Shown here: positions 42,683 to 57,046 of the stretch, piece after piece
Layout: every line of letters begins with the position of its first letter
Numbering within the stretch: the stretch's first letter is position 1
Assembly: GCF_007625075.1 (NCBI RefSeq)
Contig: NZ_QMIE01000007.1
Coordinates: 62,338 to 126,337 of the forward strand
Origin: Oceanidesulfovibrio indonesiensis
GTDB taxonomy: Bacteria; Desulfobacterota; Desulfovibrionia; Desulfovibrionales; Desulfovibrionaceae
Length of the DNA stretch: 64,000 bases
Direction of reading: 5' to 3'
Notes under the pieces: model-generated
The model's input: only the letters and a program-made list of their open reading frames with translations
What the model was told of the DNA's origin: nothing
The model's database searches: none
Made by a program: the position numbers and the translations under genes

Positions 42683-42694
42683 GTCTTTAAAGAC
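42683..42694. promoter_or_regulatory. Inverted repeat 3, 12-bp palindrome
   Basis: GTCTTTAAAGAC is a perfect 12-bp palindrome, the third dyad within 110 bases upstream of the amino-acid transporter operon. Confidence 0.35.
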
Positions 42695-43079: not shown

Positions 43080-43442
43080 TCAGTCGCTGTTCGCGGCTGC
43101 CGGCGTGAGCGAATATATCTCGTCGATGACGAGCAGGTCCTCCAGCACCATGAGTACGTGGCCGCGAACGGTGACGGAGGTGCGAGACTCAAGAGCATTG
43201 AGGAACTGCTGGCGAACCGGCGCGATGGTCTCCTCGCTTTTGATGTAGTATGTGTCGGAGTGGCCGACGATAACGTACGGAAACTCATACTCATCGCGAA
43301 CTTTCTCGCGTACACGGCTGGGTACGCCCTCGACGGTCAGGTCGAAGTCTCCGAGCGGCGCCAGGGCGGATGCAACTCCCGCAACGACGAACATTACGGC
43401 TACTGCGACAGAAAGAAGGACAGGAAGGCGGACTCGACGCAC
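43080..43442 (-). CDS. Small exported protein of unknown function
   Basis: 120 residues starting with GTG at 43442, after GAGGAG at a 7-base spacing. A signal peptide (LPVLLSVAVAVMFVVAGVASA) predicts export. The mature ~95 residues are beta-rich: FDLTVEGVPSRVREKVRDEY, FPYVIVGHSDTYYI, and TSVTVRGHVLMVLEDLLVID. This pattern suggests a small OB-like or beta-barrel domain, but I recognise no family. It lies 104 bases downstream of argD on the same strand and has no obvious partner. Confidence 0.65.
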   Translation of the reverse strand: MRRVRLPVLLSVAVAVMFVVAGVASALAPLGDFDLTVEGVPSRVREKVRDEYEFPYVIVGHSDTYYIKSEETIAPVRQQFLNALESRTSVTVRGHVLMVLEDLLVIDEIYSLTPAAANSD

Positions 43443-43546
43443 GGTTTTCTCCTCGCAATCTGATTTGCCATACCCATATCAGCTCGCCAAGCGTTGCGTC
43501 ACGGGCATTTCCCGGAAAAAAACGAGTCCGCCCCGTCTTCTCGCCA

Positions 43547-44743
43547 TTATGCGCTCAGAATATCACGCAGCGCATCAATGGTTGCATCAATGTCTTCCCG
43601 CGGGAGGATAAGCGGCGGCAGGAAGCGCAGCACTCGCTCCTGAGTGCAATTCGCCACGAAACCATGCGCCAGCAGGGCCTGCCACGCCCAGCCGGCGGGC
43701 TCCCTGAAAACCAGGCCGAGCATGAGGCCCACGCCGCGGGCTTCTTCCAGCGTGTCCGGAAACTCGTCCACCAGATCGTGGAGCTTGCCCAGAAAGTACT
43801 GTCCTTCGGTGCGCGTGCGTTGCACCAACTTGTCGTCCTGTATGATGCGCAGGACCTCCAGCGCGACAGCGGAAACCACGCCGCCGCCGCCGAAGGTGGT
43901 TGCGTGTGCTCCGGGAGCAAAGCCGCCCGCAACTTCGTCCGTGGTCACCATGGCGCCCATGGGCAGACCGTTGGCCAGGCCCTTGGCCAGGGTAACGATG
44001 TCCGGGGACACGCCGTAGTGCTGGTAGGCCATGAAGTTGCCGGTCCGGCCCATGCCTGTCTGTATCTCGTCCACCATGAGCAGCACGTCCTTGTCGCGGC
44101 AGATGCGCTCTACGGCCGCAACGTATTCCGTGGACATGGGCCGCACGCCTCCTTCGCCCTGCACCAGCTCCACGAGCACGGCCGCCGTTTTGCCGGTCAC
44201 GGCGTCGTCCAGCGCGGCCGGGTCATCCCACGGCACGGTGACGAACCCTTCCGGCAGGGGCTGGAAGTGCTCCTTGACCTTGCCCTGTCCGGTGGCGGTG
44301 AGGGTGGCCAGGGTACGACCGTGGAACGAGCCCTCCAGGGTCACCACCTCGTAGGCGTCGCGCTGCTTGACGGTGCGCATGTAGCGCCGCGCGAGCTTGA
44401 TGGCGGCTTCGTTGGCTTCGGCCCCGGAGTTGCACAGAAAGACCTTGTCCAGGCCCATGGCGCTGGTGAGCGCCTCGGCAAATTCGACCTGCTCTTCCTG
44501 ATAGAACAGGTTGGACACGTGGACGAGCTTCTGCGCCTGCTCGGCCATCACCCGCGCAAGCTCCGGCCGGCAGTGGCCGAGGTTGCATACGGCGATGCCC
44601 GCGAGAAGGTCCACGTACTCCCGGCCTTCGAAATCCGTGAGCCGGCAGCCCTCCGCCCGGGCCACGCCCAGGGGGTACCGGCCGTATGTGCTGCACAGAA
44701 CGCGTTCCGTACGCGCCTTGAGTGTATTGAACTGGTCGCTCAT
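43547..44743 (-). CDS. argD: Acetylornithine aminotransferase
   Basis: 398 residues; ATG at 44743 with GAGG upstream. Class III PLP aminotransferase motifs are LLAGIAVCNLGHCRPE, FLCNSGAEANEAAIKLAR, FHGRTLATL, LMVDEIQTGMGRTG and the PLP lysine in TLAKGLANGLPMGA. The branch is ArgD, which makes N-acetylornithine in arginine synthesis and often also acts as succinyldiaminopimelate aminotransferase. It follows dut by 110 bases on the same strand. Confidence 0.92.
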   Translation of the reverse strand: MSDQFNTLKARTERVLCSTYGRYPLGVARAEGCRLTDFEGREYVDLLAGIAVCNLGHCRPELARVMAEQAQKLVHVSNLFYQEEQVEFAEALTSAMGLDKVFLCNSGAEANEAAIKLARRYMRTVKQRDAYEVVTLEGSFHGRTLATLTATGQGKVKEHFQPLPEGFVTVPWDDPAALDDAVTGKTAAVLVELVQGEGGVRPMSTEYVAAVERICRDKDVLLMVDEIQTGMGRTGNFMAYQHYGVSPDIVTLAKGLANGLPMGAMVTTDEVAGGFAPGAHATTFGGGGVVSAVALEVLRIIQDDKLVQRTRTEGQYFLGKLHDLVDEFPDTLEEARGVGLMLGLVFREPAGWAWQALLAHGFVANCTQERVLRFLPPLILPREDIDATIDALRDILSA

Positions 44744-44853
44744 GCGTTCATACCTCATTGATGATTGTGGATCGTTGCCATACGAAAAACCCGACGCGCC
44801 GACGATGCCGGGGCGTAGCCGCCAGGGCGAATCCGGGAAACGCGAGCCGACGA

Positions 44854-45351
44854 TCAGACGCCCGTGTGCCCGAAGCCGCCCGCTCCTCGGTCGGTGTCGG
44901 AGAGCGTTTCGCTGGGCACTATGCGGGCTGCGAAGTACGGCAGGAACAGAAGCTGGGCGATGCGGTCGCCGTGCTGGATGGTGCGGGGCTCATCGGAGGT
45001 GTTGAGAAGCGAGCAGATGATCTCGCCGCGGTAGTCGGGGTCGATGACGCCGACGCCCTGGCTCACGGTGAGGCCCTTCTTGGCGCCCAGGCCGGAGCGC
45101 GAAAAGACGAAGCCGGCCACGCCGGGTGCGCCGATCTCGATGGCGATGCCCGTGGGCGCGGGGTAACGCTGGCCGGGCTCGATGGTCACGGCCTTGCCGG
45201 GCAGATCGGCCAGGCAGGCCTTGAGGTCCACACCAGCGGAAGCTGACGTGGCGTGGTTCAGGTCGTACCAGCCCGCCGCCTGCGCATACGGGCATCCTTC
45301 CTCGCGCAGGAACCGGACCCTGACCTCGATTTCGTGATGTTGCGGTTGCAT
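44854..45351 (-). CDS. dut: dUTP diphosphatase
   Basis: 165 residues; ATG at 45351 with GGGAG upstream. The trimeric dUTPase motifs are all visible: SAGVDLKA (1), SRSGLGAKKGLTV (2), GVGVIDPDYRGEI (3), RIAQLLFLP (4) and RGAGGFGHTG (5). It hydrolyses dUTP to dUMP, keeping uracil out of DNA. About 20 residues with an extra cysteine precede the usual N-terminus. It starts 64 bases after the CofD-like gene. Confidence 0.94.
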   Translation of the reverse strand: MQPQHHEIEVRVRFLREEGCPYAQAAGWYDLNHATSASAGVDLKACLADLPGKAVTIEPGQRYPAPTGIAIEIGAPGVAGFVFSRSGLGAKKGLTVSQGVGVIDPDYRGEIICSLLNTSDEPRTIQHGDRIAQLLFLPYFAARIVPSETLSDTDRGAGGFGHTGV

Positions 45352-45415
45352 TGTCGGACATTCTCCCTTTCGCGCACCACATAGCTGCCCACGCGCGCGA
45401 AAGCAAGGGATCGAA

Positions 45416-46627
45416 TCACACGATGGACAACAAATGCGCGAGAACCTTCTTCGGCGAAAGGAACGGCGGATTGTCGTCGTCCACCAGATCGGTGTCGATG
45501 ATTTCGATGCCCAGGCGGCGGATTCTCGGCAGATCCAGAGGCAGGGGGTACTCGCCGCGCCTGGTGTCCACGAGCATGAAGTTGAGGAGCTGGTCGCGAG
45601 CGCATTCATGGTCGCAGCTGCTCATCAGGGCATCCAGCAGCACGCGAACGCACCCGGAAAGCGACATGCCATGCTGCTCCGGATCGGGCGCCGAGTTTGG
45701 AATGTATATCTTGGGACAGTCGTTCCTGCTGATGCACGCGCCAACGCCTCTGGGCAGCAGGTTCGCGATGATGCTCGTGTAGAAGCTGCCCATGGGGTAA
45801 CAGATGAGTTCGGCCTTGCGTATGAGGTCGCTCACCTTGCTGCGTATCTGCACCTCGCAGGGTTCGGGCGTCCCTTCAGGCTCCAGGTCCCGCGTCAGAA
45901 ACAGCCGTTTGACGGGCGATGCGATAGGCGCGGTTTCCTTGCCCGTGATCAGGTGCTGTCCCACGATGCAGGAACCGTCGGCCATCTCGGCGGCGAGGTG
46001 CAGGTCTGCCGAACTCACGGGACGCACCGTGCCCTTCACGTCGACGAGCTTGGAGAAGAGATAGATGACCGGGTCGATGTGCCGGCCATAGTTGAAGTAC
46101 CCGCCCGCAAGGATGAGGTTGCCGATGGACGCGCCGCGCAGGTCGAACGTATCCGGCATGCACTCGGTGAAAAAGCGCAGATGGTTGCGGATGAGCTTGC
46201 GCATGGGATCATCCACCGCGATGATGAGCGGATGTTTGCCGTCGCGCAGGGCGAACAACTCTTCGCGCAGGGTGTCCCGGGGCTCGTTCTTGGGCAGCCG
46301 GTAGGCGAAAAGGTCGAAGATGGCCGAGTCCGAGCCGGGCAGGCGTTCCGAAAGAGCCATGAGCCGGTTGCGCATGTCGCCCACGGCGATCATGTTGAAA
46401 GCGCGGCGCAACTCGGCAGAACTGCCCCCGGAATCGAACGGCGTGATGATGTGGATGGAATTGTGCGTGTACCGAACCAGCCGGCGCGAAAAATCCTTGA
46501 GCGCAGTGCCGCCGGAGAAGAAAAGCACACGGGGTCCCAGCTCCGGGGAGCGTTCGTAGCGCGCGAGCTTGACCGGATCGGGCAGCGATACTGTATGGCA
46601 GACCTTGATCCGCTCGGATGACTTCAT
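45416..46627 (-). CDS. CofD/YvcK-like protein of GAK-type cluster
   Basis: 403 residues. The N-terminus VLFFSGGTALKDFSRRL, then PFDSGGSSAELRRAF and AVGDMRNRLMAL, correspond to the UPF0052/CofD superfamily motifs (GGT, DDGGSSGxLR, PPGDxRNxL); the later EAELICYPMGSFYTSII-like segment (AELICYPMGSFYTSI) also fits. CofD transfers a phospholactyl group in F420 synthesis and YvcK binds UDP-sugars; neither role can be assumed. It starts one base after the HprK-related kinase stop with GAGG upstream, so translation is coupled. In protein-family collections such a protein is listed as the CofD-like member of the GAK system. Confidence 0.85.
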   Translation of the reverse strand: MKSSERIKVCHTVSLPDPVKLARYERSPELGPRVLFFSGGTALKDFSRRLVRYTHNSIHIITPFDSGGSSAELRRAFNMIAVGDMRNRLMALSERLPGSDSAIFDLFAYRLPKNEPRDTLREELFALRDGKHPLIIAVDDPMRKLIRNHLRFFTECMPDTFDLRGASIGNLILAGGYFNYGRHIDPVIYLFSKLVDVKGTVRPVSSADLHLAAEMADGSCIVGQHLITGKETAPIASPVKRLFLTRDLEPEGTPEPCEVQIRSKVSDLIRKAELICYPMGSFYTSIIANLLPRGVGACISRNDCPKIYIPNSAPDPEQHGMSLSGCVRVLLDALMSSCDHECARDQLLNFMLVDTRRGEYPLPLDLPRIRRLGIEIIDTDLVDDDNPPFLSPKKVLAHLLSIV

Positions 46628-46628
46628 G

Positions 46629-47729
46629 CTATGCCTCGATCAGTGCGATGCATTTTTCGGCGGCGCGTTCGAAATCCACTCCGCCGGACAGCTCGTACAC
46701 CGGACAATTCTTCAGCAATTCCAGGTACGCTTCCTCGGAGAAGTCCGGCGCCACGGAATCCCCCGGACGGTAGAACAAACCCGGGGATTTCATGAACGCC
46801 GGCAGAAGGTCGTCGCGTCTGGCCAGGTTTACCTGGTTGACGATGAGTTCGCCCCCGCCGCGTTTCCAGTTGAGCAGGACGAGGCAGGACATGGGCGCGG
46901 CAAGCCGGAACCGCCCTTCTCCGAAGCACTCGTCGATGAAAGCGTCGTACTTGTGCTCCAGGGTCCACAGCTCGTTTTCCGGCATGGCTGCAAAGCGGTC
47001 GCGCTCCTCCTCGTCCATTACCGGCGTCAGGCTGGGGTTGTGCAACACGGTGCCGGGATTGATACGTGGCATCTTGGCAACCCCGTACATGACCAGCCCT
47101 GTTCTGGGGTCGCCCTCCGGTCCGCGCTTGACCATGAGCCTGTCGTTGGAGACGAAGTCCGTGTGCAGCCGCATCACATGCAGAGCCAGGGTGGACTTGC
47201 CCATGCCGGAGAACCCGGCGAAGGCCACGCCCTTCTCGCCCCTGGCCACGCCGGCCGCGTGGAACAGCAGGCTGTCGTGATCCAGTGTCCACTCGATGAA
47301 GCGGTTGTTGATGAAGTTGACGACCTGGTTGTCGTTCTCCAGGCACGGTCCGAACGCCACGTTCACGTCATCGCCGAACACGAAAAGCATTCCGGTAAGG
47401 CGCTTGCGCACGGCCCGTCCGTCCGGCAGCTGGACGTATTCTTCCTTTATTCTGGTCTTGCCCGGGTCCGGCTCTTTGGGGGTGAACTCCGCTCCCAGCG
47501 CTGCCGGCTCAGGGGCGGGAGCTTCCAGCGCATGGATCACGGTGTGGGCGTTGGGGCGTCCATTGGTCCGGAAGTCGCGAAAGTAGTCGCCGAGGTTGCG
47601 CAGGAGCTTTCCGGAGTCCGAGCGGACCTCGGTGACATAACCGCCGAAATCGAGATACAGCGAGCCCGCAATCTCGCGCCCGTCCAGCGCCGCATCCAGA
47701 AACGCTTTTGCCGAAGTCAGTGGCATCAT
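46629..47729 (-). CDS. HprK-related kinase B, GAK-type cluster
   Basis: 366 residues. A Walker A loop GFSGMGKST at 172-180, preceded by LLFHAAGVARG, and the following FVSNDRLMV match the HPr kinase/phosphorylase fold, whose P-loop is of the GxSGxGKS kind. The long N-terminal part and the C-terminal third are unlike true HprK, and no HPr gene is near, so the target is unknown. Its ATG overlaps the ATP-grasp stop codon as ATGA, and the next gene starts one base after it, so three products are probably made in fixed ratio. Confidence 0.87.
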   Translation of the reverse strand: MMPLTSAKAFLDAALDGREIAGSLYLDFGGYVTEVRSDSGKLLRNLGDYFRDFRTNGRPNAHTVIHALEAPAPEPAALGAEFTPKEPDPGKTRIKEEYVQLPDGRAVRKRLTGMLFVFGDDVNVAFGPCLENDNQVVNFINNRFIEWTLDHDSLLFHAAGVARGEKGVAFAGFSGMGKSTLALHVMRLHTDFVSNDRLMVKRGPEGDPRTGLVMYGVAKMPRINPGTVLHNPSLTPVMDEEERDRFAAMPENELWTLEHKYDAFIDECFGEGRFRLAAPMSCLVLLNWKRGGGELIVNQVNLARRDDLLPAFMKSPGLFYRPGDSVAPDFSEEAYLELLKNCPVYELSGGVDFERAAEKCIALIEA

Positions 47730-48607
47730 CGTCCGATTCTCCCGAGCACGTAGTCCACGTAGAGTTTGGCAGCGTCGATGCCGTTGGCGTCCCGAAGCCC
47801 GCGGAACCCGCCGAAGGCGGAAACCTCGAAAACCTTTGGGCCTTCCGGGGTTTCCACCACGTCCACGGAGGTGAAATCCAGCCCGAACAGGGCCTGCGCC
47901 CGATGCGCCAGCTCCAAGACCTCGGAATCCGGCTCATAGGCTTCGTAATGGCCGCCGGAGCGGGTGGTGGTGTTCCAGGAATCCTTGTTGCCGGCGCGGG
48001 CGTAGGTTGCCAGATACTCGCCGCCCAGGAAGGCAACGCCGAGGTCCTTGCCCGGATGCCTGACCATCTGCTGCAGGTACATGAACGGGTTGTGCTCCTG
48101 GAACGCCTCCACCCTGGCCCTGGCGTCCGGCTGGCCGTGCTCGATGACGAGCATGCCGCGGGCCTTGGTGGAGTAGATGGGCTTGAATACTGCGCGGCTG
48201 TAGCGTTTCAGAAAATCCATGGCTTCTTCCACGCTTTCGGTGAGCGCGGTGGGCGGCATGGGGATGCCGCCGGCAGCCAGTGTCACGGTGCAGCTCGTGC
48301 GGTCCAGCACGCGCAGGATAATCTCGGGATCGGAAAAGATGGGCACGCCGCAACGCTTGTTGAGATAGCGGAGGATCTCCAGCCTATCGAGCAGCAGCGG
48401 CGAATAGAACGGCCCGGCCTTCTTCACGATGACCGCGTCCATTTCGTGCAGGGGCTGGCCGGCTGCCCAGACTTCCTCACGTTCCAGATCCAGGGCCACG
48501 GTCTCCGGGTCCACCAGGCAGCGGAACCCGGTTTCTGCTTTCACGGTATCGGCAAGGAGCTCGGAGGACCAGCCCCCAGGCACGCCGAAGACGGCTACTT
48601 TTTTCAT
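47726..48607 (-). CDS. RimK-like ATP-grasp ligase, GAK-type cluster
   Basis: 293 residues. Regions typical of the ATP-grasp fold are seen: the N-terminal MKKVAVFGVPGGWSSELL, FKPIYSTKARGMLVIEH (central nucleotide-binding lysine strand), FMYLQQMVRHPGKDLGVAFLG and the C-terminal metal-binding strands SVDVVETPEGPKVFEVSAFGGF. It is close to RimK/glutathione-synthase-type ligases, which join a carboxylate to an amine through an acylphosphate. The substrate is unknown. Start and ribosome site are weak; a 130-base gap with a structured repeat separates it from the PhoU-kinase gene. Confidence 0.87.
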   Translation of the reverse strand: MKKVAVFGVPGGWSSELLADTVKAETGFRCLVDPETVALDLEREEVWAAGQPLHEMDAVIVKKAGPFYSPLLLDRLEILRYLNKRCGVPIFSDPEIILRVLDRTSCTVTLAAGGIPMPPTALTESVEEAMDFLKRYSRAVFKPIYSTKARGMLVIEHGQPDARARVEAFQEHNPFMYLQQMVRHPGKDLGVAFLGGEYLATYARAGNKDSWNTTTRSGGHYEAYEPDSEVLELAHRAQALFGLDFTSVDVVETPEGPKVFEVSAFGGFRGLRDANGIDAAKLYVDYVLGRIGR

Positions 48608-48650
48608 GGTCGCTTCGCAGTTGGTAACGGTTTAGAGCATCTCAGGCATG

Positions 48651-48736
48651 AAAATGTACTGAAGCTCTTATGCATTTGTCTGAAACAGGATGAAATCGTT
48701 TCAGACAGGAATCCTGTTTCAAGATGAAAATGCACT
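48651..48736. repeat. Structured AT-rich repeat element between PhoU-kinase and ATP-grasp genes
   Basis: Two perfect inverted pairs share one strand: GTCTGAAAC (48678-48686) with GTTTCAGAC (48698-48706), and TGAAACAGGAT (48681-48691) with ATCCTGTTTCA (48711-48721). Both cannot form at once. The near-identical ATGAAAATGTACT (48651-48663) and ATGAAAATGCACT (48724-48736) flank them. The composition is AT-richer than the genes. This looks like a mobile-type intergenic repeat or a conformational RNA switch inside the operon. Confidence 0.5.
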
Positions 48737-48737
48737 A

Positions 48738-50441
48738 CTAGTAGACCAGGGCGTCCTCGGACAGCACGAACTGATCCCAGGGATTCCCACGGTGGTCGAG
48801 CAGCTTTTCCAGCAGGTACACGCCGCGCAGAAACATATCCTTGGCGAAACGCGGATTGAGCTCGAACCGCGTGGACGTGATGAAGCTGCGGGCCAGGCCC
48901 AGAGCGAGCCGTGCATCGAAGGACGCGTCGCCATGCTCTGCGCCGTAACTCCTGGCGAAGTGATATATCCGCCTGGCTGCGCGATTCAACCGTGCGCGGC
49001 TGTAGAGATCGAACATCGGCAGCCGGAAGTTGGAGACGATATACACGGAAATGTCCTGCAGCGGATCGGCCAGCTTGGAGCGATGCAGATCGATGAAATG
49101 AATCTGCTGGGATTCGTGGTCGTAGACTATGTTATTGATGTTGAAATCCCCATGGATGAACACGGAGTACGGAGCCTCAAGCTCATCCTCAACGGCTTTC
49201 GCCGCCTCGAGCATGTGGGAGAACGAGGCGATCTCCAGCGAACCTATTGTCTTGGGTTGCCAGTCGAAATTGGGGTACAGCCGGAGCACGTCATCGAGAC
49301 GCGATTCGAGCTGTCTGATGAATCCGGATTTCATGGGCGCCATGGCCTGGGTGTGGTCCCAGACAGAAAGCAGGGTCTGTTCGAGAAGGAAAATAGCGTT
49401 TTCGACAATCTCTGCTTCGGCCGTGAGAACCACGTCCTGAAAAGTGCAGCCGCCAAGGTATTCCACGAGCATGGCGGCCTGGGAGCCGTCCACCTGATGA
49501 GCCAGCACTTTGGGCGGAAGGCCGGGCATGATGGAGTCCCAGCGGTTGATGTTCTCCATCTCCTGGATGATCTTCTTGCGATTGCCCTCCTTGAAGAGCA
49601 CGCCCGAAGCCTTGTCCACGCCGGGCTGTTTCTCGTCGCTCTCGGGAGCGCAGCCCTTTTCATTGGCCCGGTTCCGCGAGCGGTCCGTAACGAGTCCGAT
49701 GCGGCAGCCGGAGCGCGTGCCCCAGATGGAGTGGAACTCCACTTCGGACAAAGGCACCTCCACCCCGCTTTTGGCCAGCGTCTCGCGAAGGGCCTCGTAC
49801 TGGCGGATCTTGAACTTCTCGCCCAGGGCGGCGAAAATGATGGCCTCGCCGATGTTGAGCAGGGAGTCCCCCATACGCTCCAGATAGCGCAGTATGAGGT
49901 GGCTCGTGATGAGGTTCTCGGTCTCGCGGCCGGAACGCAATTCGTTCAGTATGCGGTCGAACTGGACCTTGTACAGGAAATCCAGTGTGAATTCGCTGCG
50001 GCAGATTTTGAAAGCCTGGGACATGTCCTGCTTGATCATGGCCGTATAGACCTGATTGAGCGCGGTGAGCACTGCCTCGAAAAACTTCGACAGATCGAAC
50101 CGTTTGATGAAATCCTTGTCCTTCAGGTACTCGGTCTGCTCAACGATGTTCACGGCGAAGTCGCCGATGCGCTCCAGATTGGAGGTCACGGTGATGGACG
50201 CGCGCAGGATGTCCACGGAACGAGGATTGCGCGAACCCGAGCGGTTGATCGCGGAGTAGCACTTGTTCTCGATCACGCTCTTCAGGTTGTCGATGTAGTC
50301 GTCGCGCGAGGTGACGGACTCGATGATCTTCGGGTCCATGGTATCGAGCACCCGCTGGGTATTCTCCACCTGCTTGACCACCTCGATCACCATGAAGCGC
50401 AGGTTCTCGGCGACTCCTTCCTTCTGGAGGACGTTTTCCAT
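48738..50441 (-). CDS. PhoU domain fused to aminoglycoside-phosphotransferase-like kinase
   Basis: 567 residues. Residues ~1-235 are two PhoU-type three-helix repeats (ITVTSNLERIGDFAVNIVEQ and LILRYLERMGDSLLNIGEAI, each with the ERxGD metal-binding core). Residues ~280-560 are an APH/choline-kinase-type domain with the catalytic loop FIHGDFNINNIVYD (H430, D432) and the metal loop IDLHRSKLADPLQD; both look active. I know of no common two-domain protein of this kind outside such clusters. It could tie a phosphotransfer reaction to the phosphate status sensed by PhoU-type domains. The start at 50441 has no good ribosome site. Confidence 0.87.
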   Translation of the reverse strand: MENVLQKEGVAENLRFMVIEVVKQVENTQRVLDTMDPKIIESVTSRDDYIDNLKSVIENKCYSAINRSGSRNPRSVDILRASITVTSNLERIGDFAVNIVEQTEYLKDKDFIKRFDLSKFFEAVLTALNQVYTAMIKQDMSQAFKICRSEFTLDFLYKVQFDRILNELRSGRETENLITSHLILRYLERMGDSLLNIGEAIIFAALGEKFKIRQYEALRETLAKSGVEVPLSEVEFHSIWGTRSGCRIGLVTDRSRNRANEKGCAPESDEKQPGVDKASGVLFKEGNRKKIIQEMENINRWDSIMPGLPPKVLAHQVDGSQAAMLVEYLGGCTFQDVVLTAEAEIVENAIFLLEQTLLSVWDHTQAMAPMKSGFIRQLESRLDDVLRLYPNFDWQPKTIGSLEIASFSHMLEAAKAVEDELEAPYSVFIHGDFNINNIVYDHESQQIHFIDLHRSKLADPLQDISVYIVSNFRLPMFDLYSRARLNRAARRIYHFARSYGAEHGDASFDARLALGLARSFITSTRFELNPRFAKDMFLRGVYLLEKLLDHRGNPWDQFVLSEDALVY

Positions 50442-50607
50442 GGATTCGGTACCATGCCCCTATATGGCCGTCGAAAAAGTAATCTTCTCTGGCTGTTCAA
50501 AAATGTTCGAATGCAGGTTGAAAAAGGATCAGGACCGAAGGATTTTTCCAGTTCGCAAGGGTATGTCTTCTTGATGAAGTGCTGCGAAAGGACGCTTTCG
50601 AAGTCTG

Positions 50608-50880
50608 CTATGAAGGTTCGACGACGAGCGGTTCTTCATCGGCCGAAGGATCCTCTTCGTCCTTCCAGCTGAACTTCAGGCTGAACTTGCGGAAATCACC
50701 CTTGCGCTTCGCCTCCACGTCGAATTTCACCAGCCCGCGAGGCTCCAGGACGAGTTCCTTGTTCTTGGTGGACAGCCGTATCTTTCCCTTTTCGAGCCCC
50801 TCGGTGACGGCCTTGAGGTACTTGAGCAGAGAGTCCAGGTCCTGCACGCTTTCGTGCTTGAAATTGATGTCGGATCCCAT
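50608..50880 (-). CDS. Amphi-Trp domain protein
   Basis: 90 residues. The pattern INFKHESVQDLDSLLKYLKAV, TEGLEKGKIRLS, LVLEPRGLVKFDVEA and FSLKFSWKDE matches the small amphi-Trp family, which alternates a helix with an amphipathic beta-sheet ending in a conserved tryptophan (W72). The tail is acidic. Its role is not known; homologues occur alone or with the GAK-type genes. The start lies 15 bases after the PHP-like gene, so the two are cotranscribed, and 166 bases separate it from the PhoU-kinase gene. Confidence 0.8.
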   Translation of the reverse strand: MGSDINFKHESVQDLDSLLKYLKAVTEGLEKGKIRLSTKNKELVLEPRGLVKFDVEAKRKGDFRKFSLKFSWKDEEDPSADEEPLVVEPS

Positions 50881-50895
50881 TGTGTGTCCCGTGTT

Positions 50896-52080
50896 CTAGT
50901 TGAGCCTCGCGGCGTACTCCCGGATGATCCGCTCGCGGTCCATGCCGGAGACCACCAGCTGCTTCCGGATAGCCATGTCGTCCCAGGCCGGTTGCAGGCC
51001 GATTTGGCGGTCGGCCTTTTCCGGGTCCTGGTGTTCCGGATCCTTGGCCTTTTCACCCATATGGCAGTCGTCGCCCATGAATACAAGCAGGGGGCGGGAA
51101 TTCGCGGTCCTGCTCTTGTTGTGGCGGTTGACCACGGTGATGAGAAACTCCGTGTATTCGCGCGACTGCGGGTTCCAGACCTCGTATCCGTCCACGTCGT
51201 AGTCGGCCAGCAGAATGGGCCAGAACTGCTCCGGGTGGGGAATGACGATGCCGGCGCCCAGGGATCGCGCTTCCTCGATGACCTCCGAGGCGCGGTAGAA
51301 GAACTTGAGAGAAAAGTCTTCCTTCACCTGCTTCTTGATCTCTTTGAGATAGACTTGCGTCCGCTCGATGACCTTGTCGCCGTACTCGTTGCGGAGCAGG
51401 TCGAACCAGTTGCGGATGAGCTTGTTCTTGACCATGTCGCGCGGGGTTTCGCGCCAGTTGTCTTCGAGCAGGGTCTTGAGCTTGCCGGTGAGGATGGATG
51501 CGAACTGGACGATGTCCAAGCCGGCGCCTGTACGGCCGGCCGCCTTCTGGCGCTGCTCCTCGCGGTAGGCCGCCGGGTTCATCACCGCGTCCATGAACTC
51601 GAAAAGCTGGCTGCCCCGGTACGTGAAGGTGTGCGAGAGCATGGACTTGAGCACATCGGCTCGTTCGTCGAGCCGTTCTTCCCTGAAATGCAAGAGCAGC
51701 TGGACCTTGCGGTTGAAGCCCCGGGAATAGCAATCCACCTCCACGCCGGAATGCCCGTTCCAGGACATGATCACGTTGTGCTGGGTCGGGATGATCAGGG
51801 ACTCCTGAACCTGCGGAAACATGGCCCGCACACGCTGGGCAATGAGATCCATGGGCACGAACTCCGGATGCCAGTGCACTGCCAGCACCTCGGTCTGCAT
51901 GGGATAGACCTGCTCGGGCGTGGCTATGCGGATGCGCTGCTCTTCGGTCAGCGCGGTGTCGATTATCCGAAAGAATCGCTCCCGGTCCGCGTCGTTTATC
52001 TCCGGGTCCACCTTGCTTACGTCCACCTGCAGACACTGCGGCGGCGTTTCGGATTTCACCAGTTCCATCTTGGTAGCCAT
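50896..52080 (-). CDS. PHP-like metal-binding protein of unknown function
   Basis: 394 residues from the ATG at 52080, with AGGAG at 6 bases. The arrangement of possible metal ligands recalls the PHP phosphoesterase fold: AVHWHPEF (H69, H71), WNGHSGVEVDC (H110, E114, D116), VIPHPEQFWPIL (H282), DVDGYEVWN (D297, E300), VNRHN (H320) and FMGDDCHMGE (D337, D338, H340). Between ~125 and 275 lies a helical stretch unlike typical PHP proteins. A phosphoesterase or nuclease role is plausible, not shown. It lies in the GAK-type operon between the XXXCH and amphi-Trp genes. Confidence 0.75.
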   Translation of the reverse strand: MATKMELVKSETPPQCLQVDVSKVDPEINDADRERFFRIIDTALTEEQRIRIATPEQVYPMQTEVLAVHWHPEFVPMDLIAQRVRAMFPQVQESLIIPTQHNVIMSWNGHSGVEVDCYSRGFNRKVQLLLHFREERLDERADVLKSMLSHTFTYRGSQLFEFMDAVMNPAAYREEQRQKAAGRTGAGLDIVQFASILTGKLKTLLEDNWRETPRDMVKNKLIRNWFDLLRNEYGDKVIERTQVYLKEIKKQVKEDFSLKFFYRASEVIEEARSLGAGIVIPHPEQFWPILLADYDVDGYEVWNPQSREYTEFLITVVNRHNKSRTANSRPLLVFMGDDCHMGEKAKDPEHQDPEKADRQIGLQPAWDDMAIRKQLVVSGMDRERIIREYAARLN

Positions 52081-52141
52081 ATATGCTCCTGCCGGCGCGT
52101 CGCAGCTCCGCCGATGCGAAACCACAGACGCCGTTCGGCGC

Positions 52142-52711
52142 TTACTTGTACCGGTCGTGGCATTCCTTCATGCTGTCGTAGAGGGCCTGCTGACGGGTTC
52201 GGGCGGCTTCCAGGTCCCCCTGTTCCACAGCCACGGCAAAGGCGTCCACAATTTCAAGGTATCTGGTGTAGAATTCCTCGCCCATGCCGGGATAGGTGCA
52301 CATCACCCGGCTGTCCTCGATGAACCGCTCCATGATCTGCCCACCCGGCAAAGAGCCGCCAAGGAGGGTCTGATAAATGGCCTTGAAATCGCTCTTCATG
52401 CGTTTCTTGAGATACTTGTACTTGGGCCTGCCGCCTTCGTCGATACCGTATCTTTCGGCAGCCTGGCACGGCGGACACTCGCATTCCGGCGCATGCTGCG
52501 GCTGCTCGTACTTGAGCTTGATCCTGGCTTTGTAGCCGCCTTCTTCCTGCTTGAGGGAGAGTGACAAGCTCCTGAACCCGTCGAGCGCCAGTTCCACATC
52601 GCCCATCGCAAGACACCCTTGGCGCATGCCCTCCGCGAGCTTCTCGAAAAAGTCCGGCGCTTCGTCCGCACCGACCATGAATTCATATTTCCGCTTGGAT
52701 TCCTGGGACAT
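52142..52711 (-). CDS. XXXCH-domain protein, GAK-type cluster
   Basis: 189 residues with GGAG before the ATG. The C-terminal segment ends ALYDSMKECHDRYK, the Cys-His pair that names the XXXCH domain. The N-terminal part (KYEFMVGADEAPDFFEKLAEGM, RSLSLSLKQEEGGYKARIKLKYE) resembles the amphi-Trp strand-helix-strand pattern. Between them lies a cysteine-rich linker (CECPPC) that might bind metal. It is the first gene of the apparent GAK-type operon, downstream of phoU, with a promoter candidate before it. Confidence 0.8.
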   Translation of the reverse strand: MSQESKRKYEFMVGADEAPDFFEKLAEGMRQGCLAMGDVELALDGFRSLSLSLKQEEGGYKARIKLKYEQPQHAPECECPPCQAAERYGIDEGGRPKYKYLKKRMKSDFKAIYQTLLGGSLPGGQIMERFIEDSRVMCTYPGMGEEFYTRYLEIVDAFAVAVEQGDLEAARTRQQALYDSMKECHDRYK

Positions 52712-52767
52712 GATGTGCTCCTTCCCGTTGCATGTACCGGTGAAAACCTATTCGTGCCAATCGTATC

Positions 52768-52795
52768 ACTATACGCACGGAAAAGGAAAATACAA
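52768..52795 (-). promoter_or_regulatory. Candidate sigma70 promoter of the GAK-type operon
   Basis: On the minus strand TTGTAT (52795-52790) and TATAGT (52773-52768) are 16 bases apart, matching 4 of 6 and 5 of 6 consensus positions. It lies about 57 bases before the XXXCH start codon and after phoU. A short inverted pair, AGGCTC / GAGCCT, overlaps its upstream side and may weakly end phoU transcription. Confidence 0.45.
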
Positions 52796-52843
52796 GGCTC
52801 AAAGCATGCAGTACACAGTTCGTCGAGCCTGCTGTTTCCTGCC

Positions 52844-53518
52844 TCAGAACCTGTGGCAGCGGTGCTTCACGTCCACGCCGTGCACGATGAATATGACGCA
52901 TTCGGCGATGTTCGTGGATAGGTCGCCCACTCGCTCCAGGGATCGGGACGCGAGGATGGAATGCACGGAACGCTCCACGGCCGGCGACTGCTGGACCATG
53001 TAGTCGATGAGATTGCGCAACACCGTCATGTCCAGCTCGTTGGCCTGCTCGTCAGCGGTGCAGACCTGGTCCGCCAGCTCGGAGTCGTCGTCCTTGAACG
53101 CCTTGATCGCCGTGCGCAGCATCTCCAGGCAGACTTGGCTGAGCTGCTCCAGCGGTTTGCTGAAGGGCAACGGCGGCCGGTGCGCGAGCAGCATGGAACG
53201 CTCGGAAATGTTTACAGCCTCATCGCCGATGCGTTCGAGGTTCACGATGATGCGCATGCAGCCGACTATGAAGCGCAGGTCCCGCGCCACAGGCTGCGCC
53301 AGGGCGAGCAGCCTGAGGGCGAACTCGTCGATCTCGCATTCGAGCTGGTTGATTTCGTAATCCTTGTCGATGACTTCCTGAGCCAGCTCGGAGTTGCGTT
53401 CCGTGAGCGCCCGCAGCGACTTGTCCAGGGCTTTCTCGGCGTAGGCCGCCATTTCGAGCACCTTCATCCGCAGGCTCGATATTTCCTGCTCCAGATGCGT
53501 CTGCATATTGATAGGCAT
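52844..53518 (-). CDS. phoU: Phosphate transport system regulator PhoU
   Basis: 224 residues with two PhoU repeats, each with the metal-binding core: MRIIVNLERIGDEAVNISER and SRSLERVGDLSTNIAECV. PhoU bridges the Pst transporter and PhoR and keeps the Pho regulon off when phosphate is plentiful. It lies 12 bases after pstB. The last residues (HGVDVKHRCHRF) are basic. A promoter candidate for the following cluster lies downstream. Confidence 0.94.
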   Translation of the reverse strand: MPINMQTHLEQEISSLRMKVLEMAAYAEKALDKSLRALTERNSELAQEVIDKDYEINQLECEIDEFALRLLALAQPVARDLRFIVGCMRIIVNLERIGDEAVNISERSMLLAHRPPLPFSKPLEQLSQVCLEMLRTAIKAFKDDDSELADQVCTADEQANELDMTVLRNLIDYMVQQSPAVERSVHSILASRSLERVGDLSTNIAECVIFIVHGVDVKHRCHRF

Positions 53519-53530
53519 ATCCGTATCTCC

Positions 53531-54289
53531 TTAACCGAAGCGTCCGGTGATATAATCTTCGGTCTGTTTTTTCTCGGGCCTGGTGAACATCTTTTCCGTG
53601 GGCCCCAACTCCACGAGCTTGCCCATGTAGAAGAACGCAGTGGTGTCCGAAACACGCGCAGCCTGCTGCATGCTGTGGGTCACGATGATGATCGTGTAAT
53701 TTTCCTTGAGCTCGTGAATGAGCTCCTCGATCTTCTGGGTCGCGATGGGGTCCAGCGCCGAGGCCGGCTCGTCCATGAGCAGCACCTCCGGATCCACGGC
53801 GATGGCCCGCGCGATGCACAGCCGTTGCTGCTGGCCGCCGGAGAGCCCCAGGGCCGAGGAGTGCAGCCGGTCCGAGACCTCGTCCCACAGCGCCGCACCC
53901 TTCAGGCTGCGCTCCACCTTGTGTTCGATAAACCGCTCGTCGCGCACGCCGTTGACCCGCAAGCCGTAGGCCACGTTGTCGTAAACGGATTTCGGAAACG
54001 GGTTGGGCTTCTGGAAGACCATCCCCACCCGCCGCCTGAGTTCCACCACATCCAGCCTGGGGCTGTAGATATCCTGATTGTCTATGCGAATCTCGCCCTC
54101 GACACGGGAGGAAGGAATGAGGTCGTTCATTCGGTTGAGGCAGCGCAGATACGTCGATTTGCCGCAGCCGGACGGTCCGATGAGGGCCGTAACCTGGTGT
54201 TCCGCGAACTCCAGGCTCACGTCGTGCAGCGCCTTGAAATCCCCGTAATAAAAGTCGAGGTTCGATGTGAACATCTTTACCGTGCTCAT
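53531..54289 (-). CDS. pstB: Phosphate ABC transporter ATP-binding protein PstB
   Basis: 252 residues. Walker A GPSGCGKS (38-45), signature [15 protein letters not shown], Walker [14 protein letters not shown] and the switch histidine [13 protein letters not shown] are intact, and [14 protein letters not shown] and [10 protein letters not shown] are PstB-specific. Its start overlaps the phoR stop by 4 bases. The other Pst genes (pstS, pstC, pstA) are not in the window, so PstB is separated from its membrane partners. Confidence 0.94.
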
Positions 54290-56274
54290 GATCTGTCTCG
54301 TATGCTCCGGGCTTTGGTTTCCCGATATTTCCCATCGGCCTCAGGGCGATCCGCGGCCGGCGCCGCATCGGATATGGCGCCGGTTTTCGGCACCGTGAAC
54401 ATGAAACATGATCCCGTGCCCGAGCCCGTCGGGCTCTCCACCCATAGCCTGCCTCCGAGCTTCTCCACAATATGCTTGCAGATGGCCAGCCCCAGCCCGG
54501 ACGACCCGGCGCCCTTGTTGGTGCGGTGCTTGTCCACGCGGTAGAAGCGCTCGAAGATGCGCTCCATGTCCCCGGCTGGAATGCCGGGGCCCTGGTCCTC
54601 CACACCGAACGTGACCATGCCGTTCTCTTCCTTGCTCCAAACTCGCGCGGCCAGGGAGGCGATATTCCCGGAGTGTGCGGCTCCCCTCTCGGGTTCGCTC
54701 TTCAGCCCGTACTTCATGGCGTTTTCCATGAGGTTTCGGAACACCTGCACGAGCCGGTCGAAATCCGCCATGACGGTCAACTCATCCGGCATATCCAGTT
54801 CCACGTACACGCCTTTTTCCCCGGCCGCCTGCTCGCATTCGCGCAGGGCCTGCGCCGCCGCTTTCACCGCATCCACCTTCCTGAGATCGAACGGCTTTTT
54901 GCCGCTTTCCAGACGGGTGAGGCTGAGCAGATCGTTGACCGTCTTGGCCATGTGGTTGGCGTGCTTGATGATGATTTCCAGAAAACTCTTCTGCCCTTCC
55001 GGTTTGGCCGTGCCCTGTTCCACGCCCAGCAGCAGGGTTTCGGCGTATCCCTTCACAGAGGTCAGCGGCGTGCGCAACTCGTGCGAGACGTTGGCCACGA
55101 AGTCGCGCCGGATGCGCTCCAGCCGGGAAAGCTCGCTGATGTCGTGGAAAACCACCACGAGACCGCCCTGCACGCCCTGCCCCCCCTGCCGGCGCATGGG
55201 CACTATGGTCACGTCGTACACGGCGTCGCGCACCGGCTCTATCTGCATGCGCACGGCCGTGGCGCCTTCCTCCCGGGAGTGCGCATCCACGGCCAGGGTG
55301 TCGTCGCAGGCGCGCTGGAGCTCCGGCGACAGGATCACCTCCAGCGGCCGTTTGCCCACGCAATCCGCAGCGTCCTGGAAAATATCCTCGAAAGCCCGAT
55401 TCACACTGCGTATGCGGCACTGGCTGTCGATGACCATGACGCCCTCGCGCATGGAATCGAGCACGGCCTGGAGCTGGGACTTCTGCTCCGTTATGGTGCG
55501 GATGTGGCTCTCGATGGATTGCGCCATGGAGTTGATGGACCTGGCCAGGGCGTCGAACTCCTTGCTCTTGAAAAAACCCAGGCGCTTCATGTAGTTGCCG
55601 GAGCCTATGGCCTCGGCCACGGCAATCGTTTCGCCCATGCAGCGCCACAGCCAGCGCACCAGGAAAAGGCTGAGCAACCCGGAGAGCAGCAGCGCTGCGG
55701 CAACCGCGATGTACATGCCGCTTTCGATGTCCTGGAGCCAGCCACCCGCCTCGTAGTGGGGCATGCCCAGCACCAGACGGCCAGGAGGCAATGCGCCGGA
55801 GCCGGACCAGGCGCCGGAGGCGAAAACCGCGTCGCCATGGAAGTATACCGAAGCGACGCGGACGTCCGGCACACCGAGATTCATGGTCGCAGGCGGCGTG
55901 TGTGATACTCCTTCGGACGGCAATGCGTTCGGGGTGGGAAAGCCGTTCGAAAGAATGGTGGACACGCCCAAATTCTCGCTGGAAGAAGCAAAAATGAGAT
56001 TGCTCGCTTCGTCGAACAGCGCCAGGCGGACCCGCAGGTTCCGGGCGGTGCTCTCCAGCCAGCCAAAAACCGGTGCTGCTTCAGGATCCTTTGCGTGTTC
56101 CCCCAGACCGGAGTGGATCAGATGGTACAACCGGCGGATTTCCAGGTCCGCGTTGTCCTTGAGCCCTTGTGTGAAGATCCGGTGCGTGTACCACGAAGGC
56201 ACCAGCAGACCGAGAAAGACCACAAGCAGAAAGGACGCGAGGACTCGCGAACGAAACGAAAAGCCGCCTCGCAT
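54286..56274 (-). CDS. phoR: Phosphate-regulon sensor histidine kinase PhoR-like
   Basis: 662 residues. TM1 (~11-28), a periplasmic segment of ~155 residues, TM2 (~187-207), a HAMP-like linker, a PAS domain (~262-385, [19 protein letters not shown]), then the kinase: phospho-acceptor H398 in [20 protein letters not shown]-box [10 protein letters not shown]-boxes DQGPGIPA and SSGLGLAI. The large periplasmic domain is longer than in E. coli PhoR. The tail after the kinase (~35 residues) is hydrophilic. It starts 6 bases after phoB and overlaps pstB, forming phoB-phoR-pstB-phoU. Confidence 0.92.
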
Positions 56275-56280: not shown

Positions 56281-56964
56281 CTACTCCTTGAACCTGTAGC
56301 CGACGCCGCGAACTGTTTCCACATAGGGCGCATACGGACCGAGTTTCTGCCGCAGCCGGCGCACGTGGGTATCCACAGTGCGGGCGTATCCCTCGAACTC
56401 GTAGCCCCAGACAGTGTTGAGCAGCTGGTCCCGGGTCTGCACCCGGCCCTGGCGTTTCACCAGTTCAAAAAGCAGCTTGAACTCAGTGGCGGTGAGCTGA
56501 ACCTCCTCGCCGTCCACGTCCACGCGGTGGGCGTCGAGATCCACGGACAAGCCGTCTTTCTGCCACCTGGAACGCGGCGTCTCTTCCGGCTGGATTCGCT
56601 TCATGATCGCCTTGACCCGCAACAGCAGCTCGCGCGGGCTGAACGGCTTGATCACGTAGTCGTCCGCGCCCAACTCCAGGCCCACGATCCGATCCACCTC
56701 TTCGCCCCGCGCCGTGAGCATGATGACAGGGATGGACGAGGTTTCCTGCTTGCGCTTGAGTTCCTTGCACACCTCGAAGCCGTCCATGGACGGCAGCATG
56801 ATGTCCAGAATGATCAGCCCCGGCTGGCGGCGGCGGGCCTGCACCAGGCCCTCGTACCCGTCCGTGGCCGTGGACACCTCGTACCCGGCGCTTTCCAGGT
56901 TGAAGGTTAGCAGCTGCAGAATGTCTTCGTCGTCTTCGATTACGAGCACTTCGTCGTTTGCCAT
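56281..56964 (-). CDS. phoB: Response regulator PhoB-like (OmpR family)
   Basis: 227 residues. The receiver domain has the acidic pocket VIEDDED (E10, D11, D12), the phospho-acceptor D54 in IILDIMLPSMDG, the switch threonine in VIMLTARGE and the lysine in YVIKPFSPREL. The C-terminal winged helix (VQLTATEFKLLFELV, VDTHVRRLRQKLG, VRGVGYRF) binds DNA. With PhoR it activates phosphate-starvation genes. PHO-box-like repeats upstream suggest self-activation. Confidence 0.94.
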   Translation of the reverse strand: MANDEVLVIEDDEDILQLLTFNLESAGYEVSTATDGYEGLVQARRRQPGLIILDIMLPSMDGFEVCKELKRKQETSSIPVIMLTARGEEVDRIVGLELGADDYVIKPFSPRELLLRVKAIMKRIQPEETPRSRWQKDGLSVDLDAHRVDVDGEEVQLTATEFKLLFELVKRQGRVQTRDQLLNTVWGYEFEGYARTVDTHVRRLRQKLGPYAPYVETVRGVGYRFKE

Positions 56965-57006: not shown

Positions 57007-57046
57007 ATGACAACATCATGGTTCTCGTGTGACAACTGTGTGACGA
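57007..57046 (-). promoter_or_regulatory. PHO-box-like repeat array upstream of phoB
   Basis: On the minus strand TCGTCAC (57046-57040), TTGTCAC (57035-57029) and TTGTCAT (57013-57007) start 11 and 22 bases apart, the helical phasing of PhoB half-sites (consensus CTGTCAT). The array lies 43-82 bases upstream of the phoB start codon. The half-site between the last two is not conserved. Confidence 0.55.

Follow-up and report, generated by a model that had tools for sequence, protein, structure and literature searches.

The GAK system has so far been known by its family names only (NCBIfam TIGR04354-TIGR04358), and these names carry no function. Seven consecutive GAK-type genes lie on the minus strand (45416-52711) of the window, the 64 kb stretch of Oceanidesulfovibrio indonesiensis DNA analysed here. 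A preliminary description of this DNA had recognised seven minus-strand genes, had noted a 4-base overlap and a 1-base gap among the last three, and had assigned the locus to the GAK system as one without established function. All seven ORFs were found at the positions given, as were the gap (46628) and the overlap (47726-47729), and searches against the GAK, amphi-Trp and XXXCH models placed five products of this one locus, the CofD-like, HprK-B, ATP-grasp, amphi-Trp and XXXCH proteins, far over the curated cut-offs of TIGR04354-TIGR04358 (Table 1), so that the five named families are common to the system and the window locus. A literature search likewise gave no described function. What we add are modules, residue conservation, folds and a phosphate link, the PHP protein, PhoU-APH and the connection to PhoB being derived from the loci compared here rather than from family names. 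The strongest clue, which the preliminary description had left unused, is the phosphate link, i.e., phoB-phoR-pstB-phoU directly upstream together with PhoB boxes. Scans of the surrounding DNA for other elements gave no Rfam match at the gathering threshold (40000-60000) and chance-like numbers of promoters (2 found versus 2.5 expected) and terminators (9 versus 7.0) between 45200 and 53700.

Table 1. Features of the GAK-type locus and of the phosphate genes next to it (window coordinates).
Feature	Position	Strand	Evidence
CofD-like (GlmR/YvcK-type)	45416..46627	-	TIGR04357 532 bits, cut-off 340
HprK-related kinase B (HprK-B)	46629..47729	-	TIGR04355 492 bits, cut-off 200
ATP-grasp ligase, RimK/LysX/MptN type	47726..48607	-	TIGR04356 424 bits, cut-off 300; PDB profile matches are glutamate-type ligases
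PhoU-APH (PhoU domain + APH-type kinase)	48738..50441	-	Pfam PhoU 90.6/23.5, APH 34.1/23.2
Amphi-Trp protein	50608..50880	-	TIGR04354 78 bits, cut-off 31
PHP-fold phosphoesterase-like protein	50896 to ~52080 (52125 in the longest ORF)	-	Predicted fold
XXXCH protein	52142..52711	-	TIGR04358 93 bits, cut-off 40
PhoU	52844..53518	-	TIGR02135 207 bits, cut-off 130
PstB	53531..54289	-	TIGR00972 417 bits, cut-off 343
PhoR-like histidine kinase	54286..56274	-	HisKA + HATPase; NCBIfam PnpS/PhoR matches below equivalog cut-offs
PhoB-like response regulator	56281..56964	-	Response_reg + Trans_reg_C; name PhoB given by position
PhoB box	57029..57045	-	Perfect YGTNAC N5 YGTNAC; 5' end 81 nt before phoB start codon

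The window thus carries the string phoB-phoR-pstB-phoU-GAK, with the PhoB box ahead of its first gene, phoB. The repeat of this box is the D. vulgaris consensus given in the accessible text of PMC3333781, where it is printed with a 4-bp spacer; the 5-bp spacer (YGTNAC N5 YGTNAC) is our choice, as spacers of 3-6 bp were scanned over all loci and only 5 was taken further. The site is the only one in the 64 kb, matching on both strands (0.24 matches expected; two or more in 5 of 100 shuffles), and the first GAK gene follows ~4.3 kb downstream of it, which counts against a Pho reading. Twenty operon heads at GAK-type loci could be scored (25 were listed and five failed the rule on upstream space or start position), and 8 of the 20 have a putative PhoB box with no more than one mismatch in the operon promoter region, compared to 3/164 other promoters of the same loci (p = 6e-7) and, in 40 control loci, 5/275 promoters (p = 1e-7). 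The controls comprise 20 loci of 20 kb (L118-L137, 3/180 promoters) from G012, G244, G141 and G148, of which G141 has CofD only, and XXXCH loci outside GAK clusters (L089-L108, 2/95, both perfect and just behind the XXXCH gene). When the window and L085, in both of which the box precedes phoB, were dropped, 6/18 heads were left (p = 9e-6), and with pairs collapsed 5/16 (p = 6e-5). Perfect boxes occur before phoB (window, L085) and before the PHP gene (L075) and, as a positive control, at 2831-2847 of G079:C67, the 5' end lying 97 nt before the first in-frame pstS start (2928). Raw perfect matches are alike in GAK loci (5, at 4 sites, in 561 kb) and controls (4, at 3 sites, in 585 kb), all three control sites being intergenic and two lying just behind stand-alone XXXCH genes (L095, L098); it is the position before GAK heads, not the raw number of sites, that makes up the box signal.

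Several of these results weigh on the other side. Even with one mismatch allowed, 12/20 heads lack a box (including L067, L072, L078 and L081), among them every one of the seven scored from families other than f1 and f13, and this argues against the Pho reading, as does the fact that only the 11-bp period gave a signal. The f1/f13 subset (8/13 heads) was picked after the scan, and the all-lineage counts are therefore the ones to use. A box with the 4-bp spacer was absent from the window and present at 1/20 heads versus 2/180 control promoters, and a scan with the E. coli consensus Pho box gave nothing above background.

Phosphate genes were found near 11 of 30 GAK-type loci versus none of 40 control loci (p = 2.5e-5), the neighbour families and query sequences having been picked after the loci had been seen. 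According to the accessible portion of PMC3333781, pst, phoU, pta-ack and HD/EAL genes are among the targets of PhoB in D. vulgaris. Within our sample, L077 and L080 have a split GAK locus that encloses pta-ackA, and an EAL gene lies near L071, L076 and L113. The accessible part of a D. alaskensis phosphate-limitation paper (PMC5193443) names PhoU seven times, as a plain phoU homologue, and there CofD, PHP, HprK and ATP-grasp were not found. Taken together, the link between GAK and the Pho system is well supported.

The kinase, ligase and phosphotransferase-like activities previously proposed for this locus are plausible, since almost every residue that was mapped to, or would be expected in, the catalytic sites of the five enzymes is invariant in our alignments. 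Exceptions occur at three positions: the ATP-grasp metal site, which has a Ser, the first residue of the Asp pair of HprK and, in the CofD-like protein, the second Asp (Listeria GlmR D41). In PhoU-APH, the candidate residues K284, H430, D432, N437 and D451 are invariant (15/15). The PHP-like protein matches nothing in Pfam and NCBIfam at E <= 0.01, nor in the PDB by sequence, and it was its AF2 model (pLDDT 81.6) that bore out the earlier name: VIA-align superposed the model on the PHP phosphoesterases 3o0f (Z 12.5, rmsd 4.0, 234 aligned) and 2yb1 (Z 11.5) and on RNase AM (Z 11.7), each at an rmsd of about 4 over about 230 residues, with non-PHP rows at Z <= 4.5. Foldseek found nothing at E <= 0.001 (its lowest E was 9.9e-3) and is weak on its own, so that the assignment of a PHP fold to the predicted model rests on VIA-align. 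A long helical stretch at about 147-260 sets the protein apart from the PHP group. Seven residues of the 399-residue translation (H74, H76, E119, H136, H287, D343 and H345), candidate metal ligands assigned by motif, are invariant (15/15).

Because of the box counts, the perfect boxes and the phosphate neighbours, the resemblance of pta-ackA and EAL genes near GAK loci to the partly accessible list of D. vulgaris PhoB targets, the invariant candidate catalytic residues and the PHP fold, we favour, as a plausible yet tentative reading, that GAK is a Pho-regulon module moving phosphoryl groups on a small molecule or a small protein. We infer that scarce phosphate would lead PhoB to turn on this cytoplasmic module of the phosphate-starvation regulon, together with or beside the pst and pho genes, and we likewise infer which reactions take place, in what order, and that they share one small substrate (a metabolite or a small amphi-Trp protein). 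The APH kinase and HprK-B would add phosphate, the PhoU domain tied to the former could report phosphate status, transfer of a nucleotidyl or phospho group would fall to the GlmR/CofD-like protein, ligation of an amino acid via an acyl phosphate to the ATP-grasp enzyme, and removal of phosphate to the PHP enzyme. HprK/P removes phosphate with inorganic phosphate, and HprK-B could also do so. Placement in the Pho regulon makes GAK function simply testable and, if true, would mean that phosphate starvation in these anaerobes switches on an added enzymatic pathway.

HprK-B could instead serve signalling. It keeps the His, the Walker A motif and the second Asp of HprK/P (His157, Walker A and Asp196, invariant in 17/17) and its profile matches HprK chains in the PDB (best E 3e-5), but the first Asp of the Asp pair is Asn in 17/17, the score on TIGR00679 is 15.9 bits (cut-off 240), and the match spans only about 55 residues around Walker A. 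GAK might then be a protein-phosphorylation relay in which HprK-B phosphorylates HPr or an amphi-Trp protein, PhoU-APH reports phosphate status and the CofD-like protein acts not as an enzyme but as a regulator that senses a metabolite, a possibility that we consider real but doubtful. Consistent with such a relay, HPr scores over cut-off in 16/16 GAK genomes and canonical HprK in only 1/16, versus 76/233 genomes of the phylum (GAK genomes included, at most nine first-look candidates scored per genome), the catalytic features named above are retained, and binding of GlmR, a UDP-GlcNAc-binding accessory uridyltransferase, to a partner depends on UDP-GlcNAc (accessible text of PMC7525490). Against it stand the Asn in place of the first Asp, an amino-acid ligase and a PHP hydrolase that would be superfluous for signalling, and the finding that canonical HprK is also missing from 7/7 same-family g3 genomes without HprK-B. 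As this lack of HprK is lineage-wide, HprK-B as a substitute for the canonical enzyme, suggestive as the counts are, was rejected as an explanation in its own right and relegated to this alternative.

The module favoured here assigns enzymatic roles to the ATP-grasp and CofD-like proteins, whose relatives also invite comparison with cofactor synthesis. The GAK ATP-grasp resembles RimK/LysX/MptN over nearly its whole length, its profile being nearest alpha-L-glutamate ligases (7qyr, E 6.6e-25; MptN 137 bits) and K142, K148, D249 and E261 being invariant, but it falls under every listed cut-off except GAK's own and has Ser263 in the metal site, where Asn is usual. We considered whether the amphi-Trp protein might serve this ligase as a carrier of LysW type and rejected the idea, its C-termini being unconserved and lacking an invariant terminal Glu (16 aligned). 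The CofD-like profile matched only five PDB chains at E <= 0.01, all UPF0052-type, which we take to be the YvcK family, or 'hypothetical' (E 1e-18 to 1.5e-36). Its NCBIfam matches at the same threshold are TIGR04357 and TIGR01826 only, the latter at 122.4 bits (cut-off 196). One of the five chains, 2o2z, has been named a GlmR homologue (PMC10128056). D40 and N198 of Listeria GlmR align with D65 and N289, both invariant, whereas the D41 position is Ser in 16/16 GAK proteins (Asn in 2ppv), so that the D40/D41/N198 set is not complete in the CofD-like protein; Y265 and R301, the UDP-GlcNAc site of GlmR in the accessible text of PMC7525490, have no secure counterpart position in the alignment. By sequence, the protein is nearer GlmR/YvcK than the F420 CofD (2-phospho-L-lactate transferase), with which it shares Pfam family PF01933 (149 bits), but no F420-CofD equivalog, nor any chain so named, is among its matches at E <= 0.01.

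That GAK builds an F420-like cofactor or conjugate, by CofD-like transfer and then RimK/MptN-like glutamylation and unrelated to phosphate supply, is unlikely in our view. The glutamate-ligase kinship and the shared Pfam family speak for it, but the UPF0052-type matches include zero F420-CofD chains, CofD is missing in G037, nine genomes have it but neither HprK-B nor ATP-grasp, and the PhoB boxes would be left unexplained. F420 chemistry itself was discarded on the profile result, which gave UPF0052-type or hypothetical chains only. CofD genes outside GAK have pstS-, pstC-, pstA-, pstB- and phoU-like neighbours in L082, and a PiT transporter with DUF47 beside them in L084, L115 and L116, which speaks for the Pho reading.

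For the grouping of the genes, the preliminary description had proposed strict co-occurrence as the check. A scan of named genomes with short patterns gave at least four loci, of which L085 and L086 are clear relatives; genes in relatives' loci were called by a simple codon-usage script rather than a standard gene finder. In a sample of 247 genomes, all 15 with HprK-B fall within the 16 with ATP-grasp (hypergeometric p = 4e-23, kinship ignored), G042 being scored as a carrier of both although its CofD has a broken frame and scores under the cut-off. Strict co-occurrence held one way among HprK-B, ATP-grasp, PHP and PhoU-APH, each of the 16 ATP-grasp genomes having PHP and PhoU-APH (G052 was excluded from PhoU-APH because nothing but the PhoU part matched, with 97.7 bits over 5-244), and failed for CofD on the same nine genomes and on G037, which keeps the rest of GAK. 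The HprK-B genomes also carry amphi-Trp (15/15) and, over cut-off, CofD (13/15) and XXXCH (11/15), so that the named genes do not always occur together. Two separable modules emerge, PHP/amphi-Trp/PhoU-APH and ATP-grasp/HprK-B, with CofD looser. Since the order PHP, amphi-Trp, PhoU-APH, ATP-grasp, HprK-B, CofD recurs across several families of the phylum and HprK-B co-occurs with ATP-grasp, the grouping is more than chance.

These distributions also bear on whether the genes might be neighbours by history that serve separate pathways, which we regard as quite improbable: although family f76 has PHP, amphi-Trp and PhoU-APH without ATP-grasp and HprK-B, CofD stands alone elsewhere and amphi-Trp and XXXCH are common outside GAK, this would not account for the retained six-gene order, the 16/16 ATP-grasp genomes with PHP and PhoU-APH, or the correlated pairwise distances of the five enzymes (r 0.61-0.90, 11 loci), to which shared ancestry contributes in part.

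A bolder version of the Pho reading, and a long shot, is that PhoB controls the synthesis and breakdown, by GAK, of a so far unassigned compound that is rich in phosphorus and serves storage or signalling. The set of two kinases, PHP hydrolase, nucleotidyl/phospho-transferase-like protein and ATP-grasp enzyme would suit a pathway of this kind. The ATP-grasp fold also serves inositol pyrophosphate kinases. A candidate compound is glucose pentakis(diphosphate), reportedly present in granules of Desulfovibrio gigas, for which we know of no biosynthetic genes. The phrase 'glucose pentakis' was not found among the literature matches listed, nor were HprK, PhoU, polyphosphate, diphosphate or granule in the accessible part of the D. 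gigas genome paper (PMC4287179). An anti-phage defence system, which clustered kinases, nucleotide-type enzymes and small proteins of patchy distribution might evoke, is highly improbable, as 0/7 proteins matched PADLOC models at E <= 0.001 and the PhoB boxes and pst neighbours point another way.

The remaining member, the XXXCH protein, joins an N-terminal amphi-Trp-like part (18.8 bits, below cut-off), barely covered by the fold searches, to a C-terminal part predicted to form a cytochrome c'-like four-helix bundle, and no signal sequence was seen by eye. Its last two helices with CH-x-x-Y-K match cytochrome c' by profile (E 3.5e-5), and Foldseek gave the top cytochrome c' rows a probability of 1.00 (E >= 0.008), while a designed bundle was top in VIA-align (Z 13.1; cytochrome c' rows about 11.9). 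The CH is invariant (32/32) but has no Cys three places earlier, so that CXXCH is not formed, and, unlike in cytochrome c', the bundle is fused behind the amphi-Trp-like part. XXXCH is thus likely a cytochrome c' relative without the first heme Cys, and this likely origin and the relation of the CofD-like protein to GlmR offer two biochemical leads.

A preliminary description had assigned seven minus-strand genes of the window, encoding CofD-like, HprK-B (HprK-related kinase), ATP-grasp, PhoU-APH, amphi-Trp, PHP-like and XXXCH proteins, to the GAK system, and their coordinates, strand and spacing were borne out on the window. NCBIfam models placed five of the seven proteins in GAK families, each far over the curated cut-off, and the GAK membership of the cluster is secure. 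Pfam verified the PhoU-APH fusion, and the PHP-like protein had no family match in NCBIfam or Pfam at E <= 0.01. The cluster's immediate upstream neighbours, encoded on the same strand, are phoU, pstB, a phoR-like kinase gene and a phoB-like regulator gene, tightly packed together and separated from XXXCH by 132 nt. A dUTPase gene and a class III aminotransferase gene are the downstream neighbours. The nearest named relative among the matches listed is Desulfovibrio sp. isolate Madre1 (L085), whose HprK-B is 66% identical. Literature searches found no function for the GAK system, amphi-Trp, the HprK-related kinase or the XXXCH domain (sole match for 'XXXCH domain': one mention in an unrelated phage paper), nor for PhoU combined with ATP-grasp, CofD or related terms.

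Coordinates of the GAK genes, PhoB-box-like sites and neighbouring genes in the window and in compared loci (L numbers)
Locus	Coordinates	Strand	Feature
Window	45416-52711	minus	seven GAK genes
Window	57029-57045		perfect PhoB box
L075	12756-13643		metallo-beta-lactamase-fold gene
L111	9298-10227		metallo-beta-lactamase-fold gene
L112	10035-10946		metallo-beta-lactamase-fold gene
L075	13640-15280		carboxyltransferase-type gene
L072	1561-3237		carboxyltransferase-type gene
L071	15267-17606		EAL-GGDEF-CBS type gene
L076	3484-5838		EAL-GGDEF-CBS type gene
L113	6132-8192		EAL-GGDEF-CBS type gene
L095	5053-5069		perfect PhoB-box-like site
L098	4626-4642		perfect PhoB-box-like site
L104	4844-5134		XXXCH-only gene
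L105	4867-5157		XXXCH-only gene
L106	2794-3084		XXXCH-only gene
L144	4945-5220		amphi-Trp gene
L154	4943-5203		amphi-Trp gene

To determine if the genes co-occur, one sample of 247 phylum genomes was searched with every family. Curated cut-offs were passed by CofD in 22 genomes, HprK-B in 15, ATP-grasp in 16, XXXCH in 18 and amphi-Trp in 48, and profiles built here detected the PHP protein in 20 (E <= 1e-10) and PhoU-APH in 18 (one PhoU-only match excluded). ATP-grasp occurred in all 15 HprK-B genomes, and PHP plus PhoU-APH in all 16 ATP-grasp genomes; the expected co-occurrence held in one direction for these four families and failed for CofD, which is missing in genome G037, broken in G042 and present in nine genomes without HprK-B and ATP-grasp. 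ATP-grasp stands without HprK-B in G103 (on a 12.4-kb contig that also lacks CofD), PHP and PhoU-APH without ATP-grasp in G189 and G209, and PHP without PhoU-APH in G188 and G229. Two genomes, G184 and G244, have the cluster divided between separate locations: ATP-grasp, HprK-B, peroxiredoxin, pta, ackA and CofD stand at one, and a second HprK-B accompanies XXXCH, PHP, amphi-Trp and PhoU-APH at the other. Therefore, the GAK unit consists of two enzyme modules to which CofD is more loosely attached, and amphi-Trp and XXXCH are companions of wider spread. Across 11 loci, pairwise distances are correlated among the five enzymes (r 0.61 to 0.90; <=3/2000 permutations as high), as expected of a unit inherited together and also of shared ancestry. 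In the GAK locus L068, from G042, the PHP, PhoU-APH and CofD frames are broken (possibly by sequencing error), and ATP-grasp and HprK-B are open; this genome also has canonical HprK.

A perfect PhoB box (YGTNAC N5 YGTNAC; 11-bp period, 5-bp spacer) is the only one in the window, its 5' end lying 81 nt ahead of the start codon of phoB, a layout that recurs in L085 (82 nt); for the window GAK genes to come under it, transcription would have to run on from phoB. In other loci the box precedes the GAK genes themselves: L075 has a perfect box before PHP, and L065, L069, L076, L077 and L080 have one-mismatch boxes before the head gene. Across all lineages, a box with <=1 mismatch was found at 8/20 operon heads versus 3/164 other promoters of the same loci (p = 6e-7) and versus 3/180 and 2/95 promoters in two control sets (together 5/275, p = 1e-7). 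The enrichment persisted without the window and L085 (6/18, p = 9e-6) and when same-genus or similar pairs were collapsed (5/16, p = 6e-5), this last test being weakened by a wider control. As positive control, a perfect box was recovered in G079 with its 5' end 97 nt before a pstS-like start. Twelve of the 20 heads have no box at <=1 mismatch, including all seven tested beyond families f1 and f13; with the 4-bp spacer printed for D. vulgaris, frequency at heads was not above the control rate, an E. coli consensus scan yielded nothing above background, and perfect boxes, counted regardless of position, are not enriched in GAK loci relative to controls. Judged from sequence, membership of GAK in the Pho regulon is well supported in families f1 and f13. 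Two of the perfect control sites, in genomes of genus g108 without GAK, immediately follow XXXCH genes that stand alone (L095, L098).

The gene neighbourhoods were queried by tblastn in 30 loci with GAK or one module. Pst, PhoU, PiT, DUF47 or PhoH lay near 11 of them (the window, L071, L073, L075, L079, L082, L084, L085, L113, L115 and L116, with L084, L115 and L116 representing a single genus and CofD only) versus 0/40 control loci (585 kb; p = 2.5e-5), a comparison in which families and queries were taken from these very loci after inspection, pstC and pstA were named by position, and control loci were shorter on average. Three further loci (L077, L080, L109) have pta or ackA nearby. In the single genus, g3, a stand-alone GAK-type CofD has in its vicinity a gene with a 3'-5' exonuclease domain and a phosphate transporter pair, DUF47-PiT. 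Two family f13 genomes have carboxyltransferase-type genes, which we take to be 5-oxoprolinase-like, on the 5' side of the GAK genes. In D. vulgaris, PhoB recognises a box made of (c/t)GTnAC repeats, and its targets include pst, phoU, pta-ack and genes with HD/EAL domains (PMC3333781); genes of these types lie near GAK genes in other genomes compared.

The earlier proposal of a kinase, ligase and transferase pathway is plausible in view of alignments (15-17 sequences per family): apart from the exceptions given below, every residue with a mapped or expected catalytic role is invariant. The chemistry itself is inferred. Invariant in HprK-B are His157, Walker A (172-180) and Asp196, preceded by Asn195 in place of the Asp that precedes the second Asp in HprK. 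The APH part retains Lys284, His430, Asp432, Asn437 and Asp451, all presumably catalytic, and ATP-grasp retains Lys142, Lys148, Asp249 and Glu261, with Ser263 where Asn is usual. The PHP-like protein (399-residue numbering) retains His74, His76, Glu119, His136, His287, Asp343 and His345, to which we provisionally assign roles from PHP motifs. In CofD-like proteins, the invariant Asp65 and Asn289 align with Asp40 and Asn198 of Listeria GlmR, and Ser66 stands at its Asp41 (PMC10128056). The two kinases, the ligase, the GlmR-like transferase and the PHP hydrolase may act on a shared substrate, and a phosphoryl pathway on a small molecule or small protein fits best. HPr is encoded in 16/16 GAK genomes and canonical HprK in 1/16, versus 76/233 phylum genomes (<=9 first-look candidates scored per genome); this scarcity does not show that HprK-B replaces HprK, because 7/7 family-matched g3 genomes without HprK-B likewise have none.

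The predicted PHP-like model (mean pLDDT 81.6) matched PHP proteins by VIA-align, namely 3o0f (Z 12.5, rmsd 4.0 over 234 residues), RNase AM 9etk (Z 11.7) and 2yb1 (Z 11.5), with non-PHP rows at Z <= 4.5; taken by themselves, the Foldseek matches were weak (3e0f and 3o0f among them, best E 9.9e-3). A metallo-beta-lactamase-fold gene lies immediately 5' of PHP in three loci, and EAL-GGDEF-CBS type genes lie near PHP in three, two of these with a PhoB box (<=1 mismatch).

The XXXCH profile matched cytochrome c' in PDB (E 3.5e-5) across its final 44 positions, and its predicted model is a four-helix bundle (mean pLDDT 88.1). The best Foldseek rows are cytochrome c' (probability 1.00, but E >= 0.008); the best VIA-align row is a designed bundle (Z 13.1), with cytochrome c' at about 11.9, a score that helical bundles can also reach through arrangement alone. 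Because profile and fold matches combine, kinship with cytochrome c' is likely; the CXXCH of the latter would have turned into xxxCH, whose CH is invariant in 32/32 sequences. The window's genome shares with G244 and G184 a short XXXCH-only gene whose neighbours, named by eye, are ParA-like, ParB-like and RfaE-like, and amphi-Trp genes in G244 and G148 lie one gene from ParA-like ATPase genes (also named by eye).
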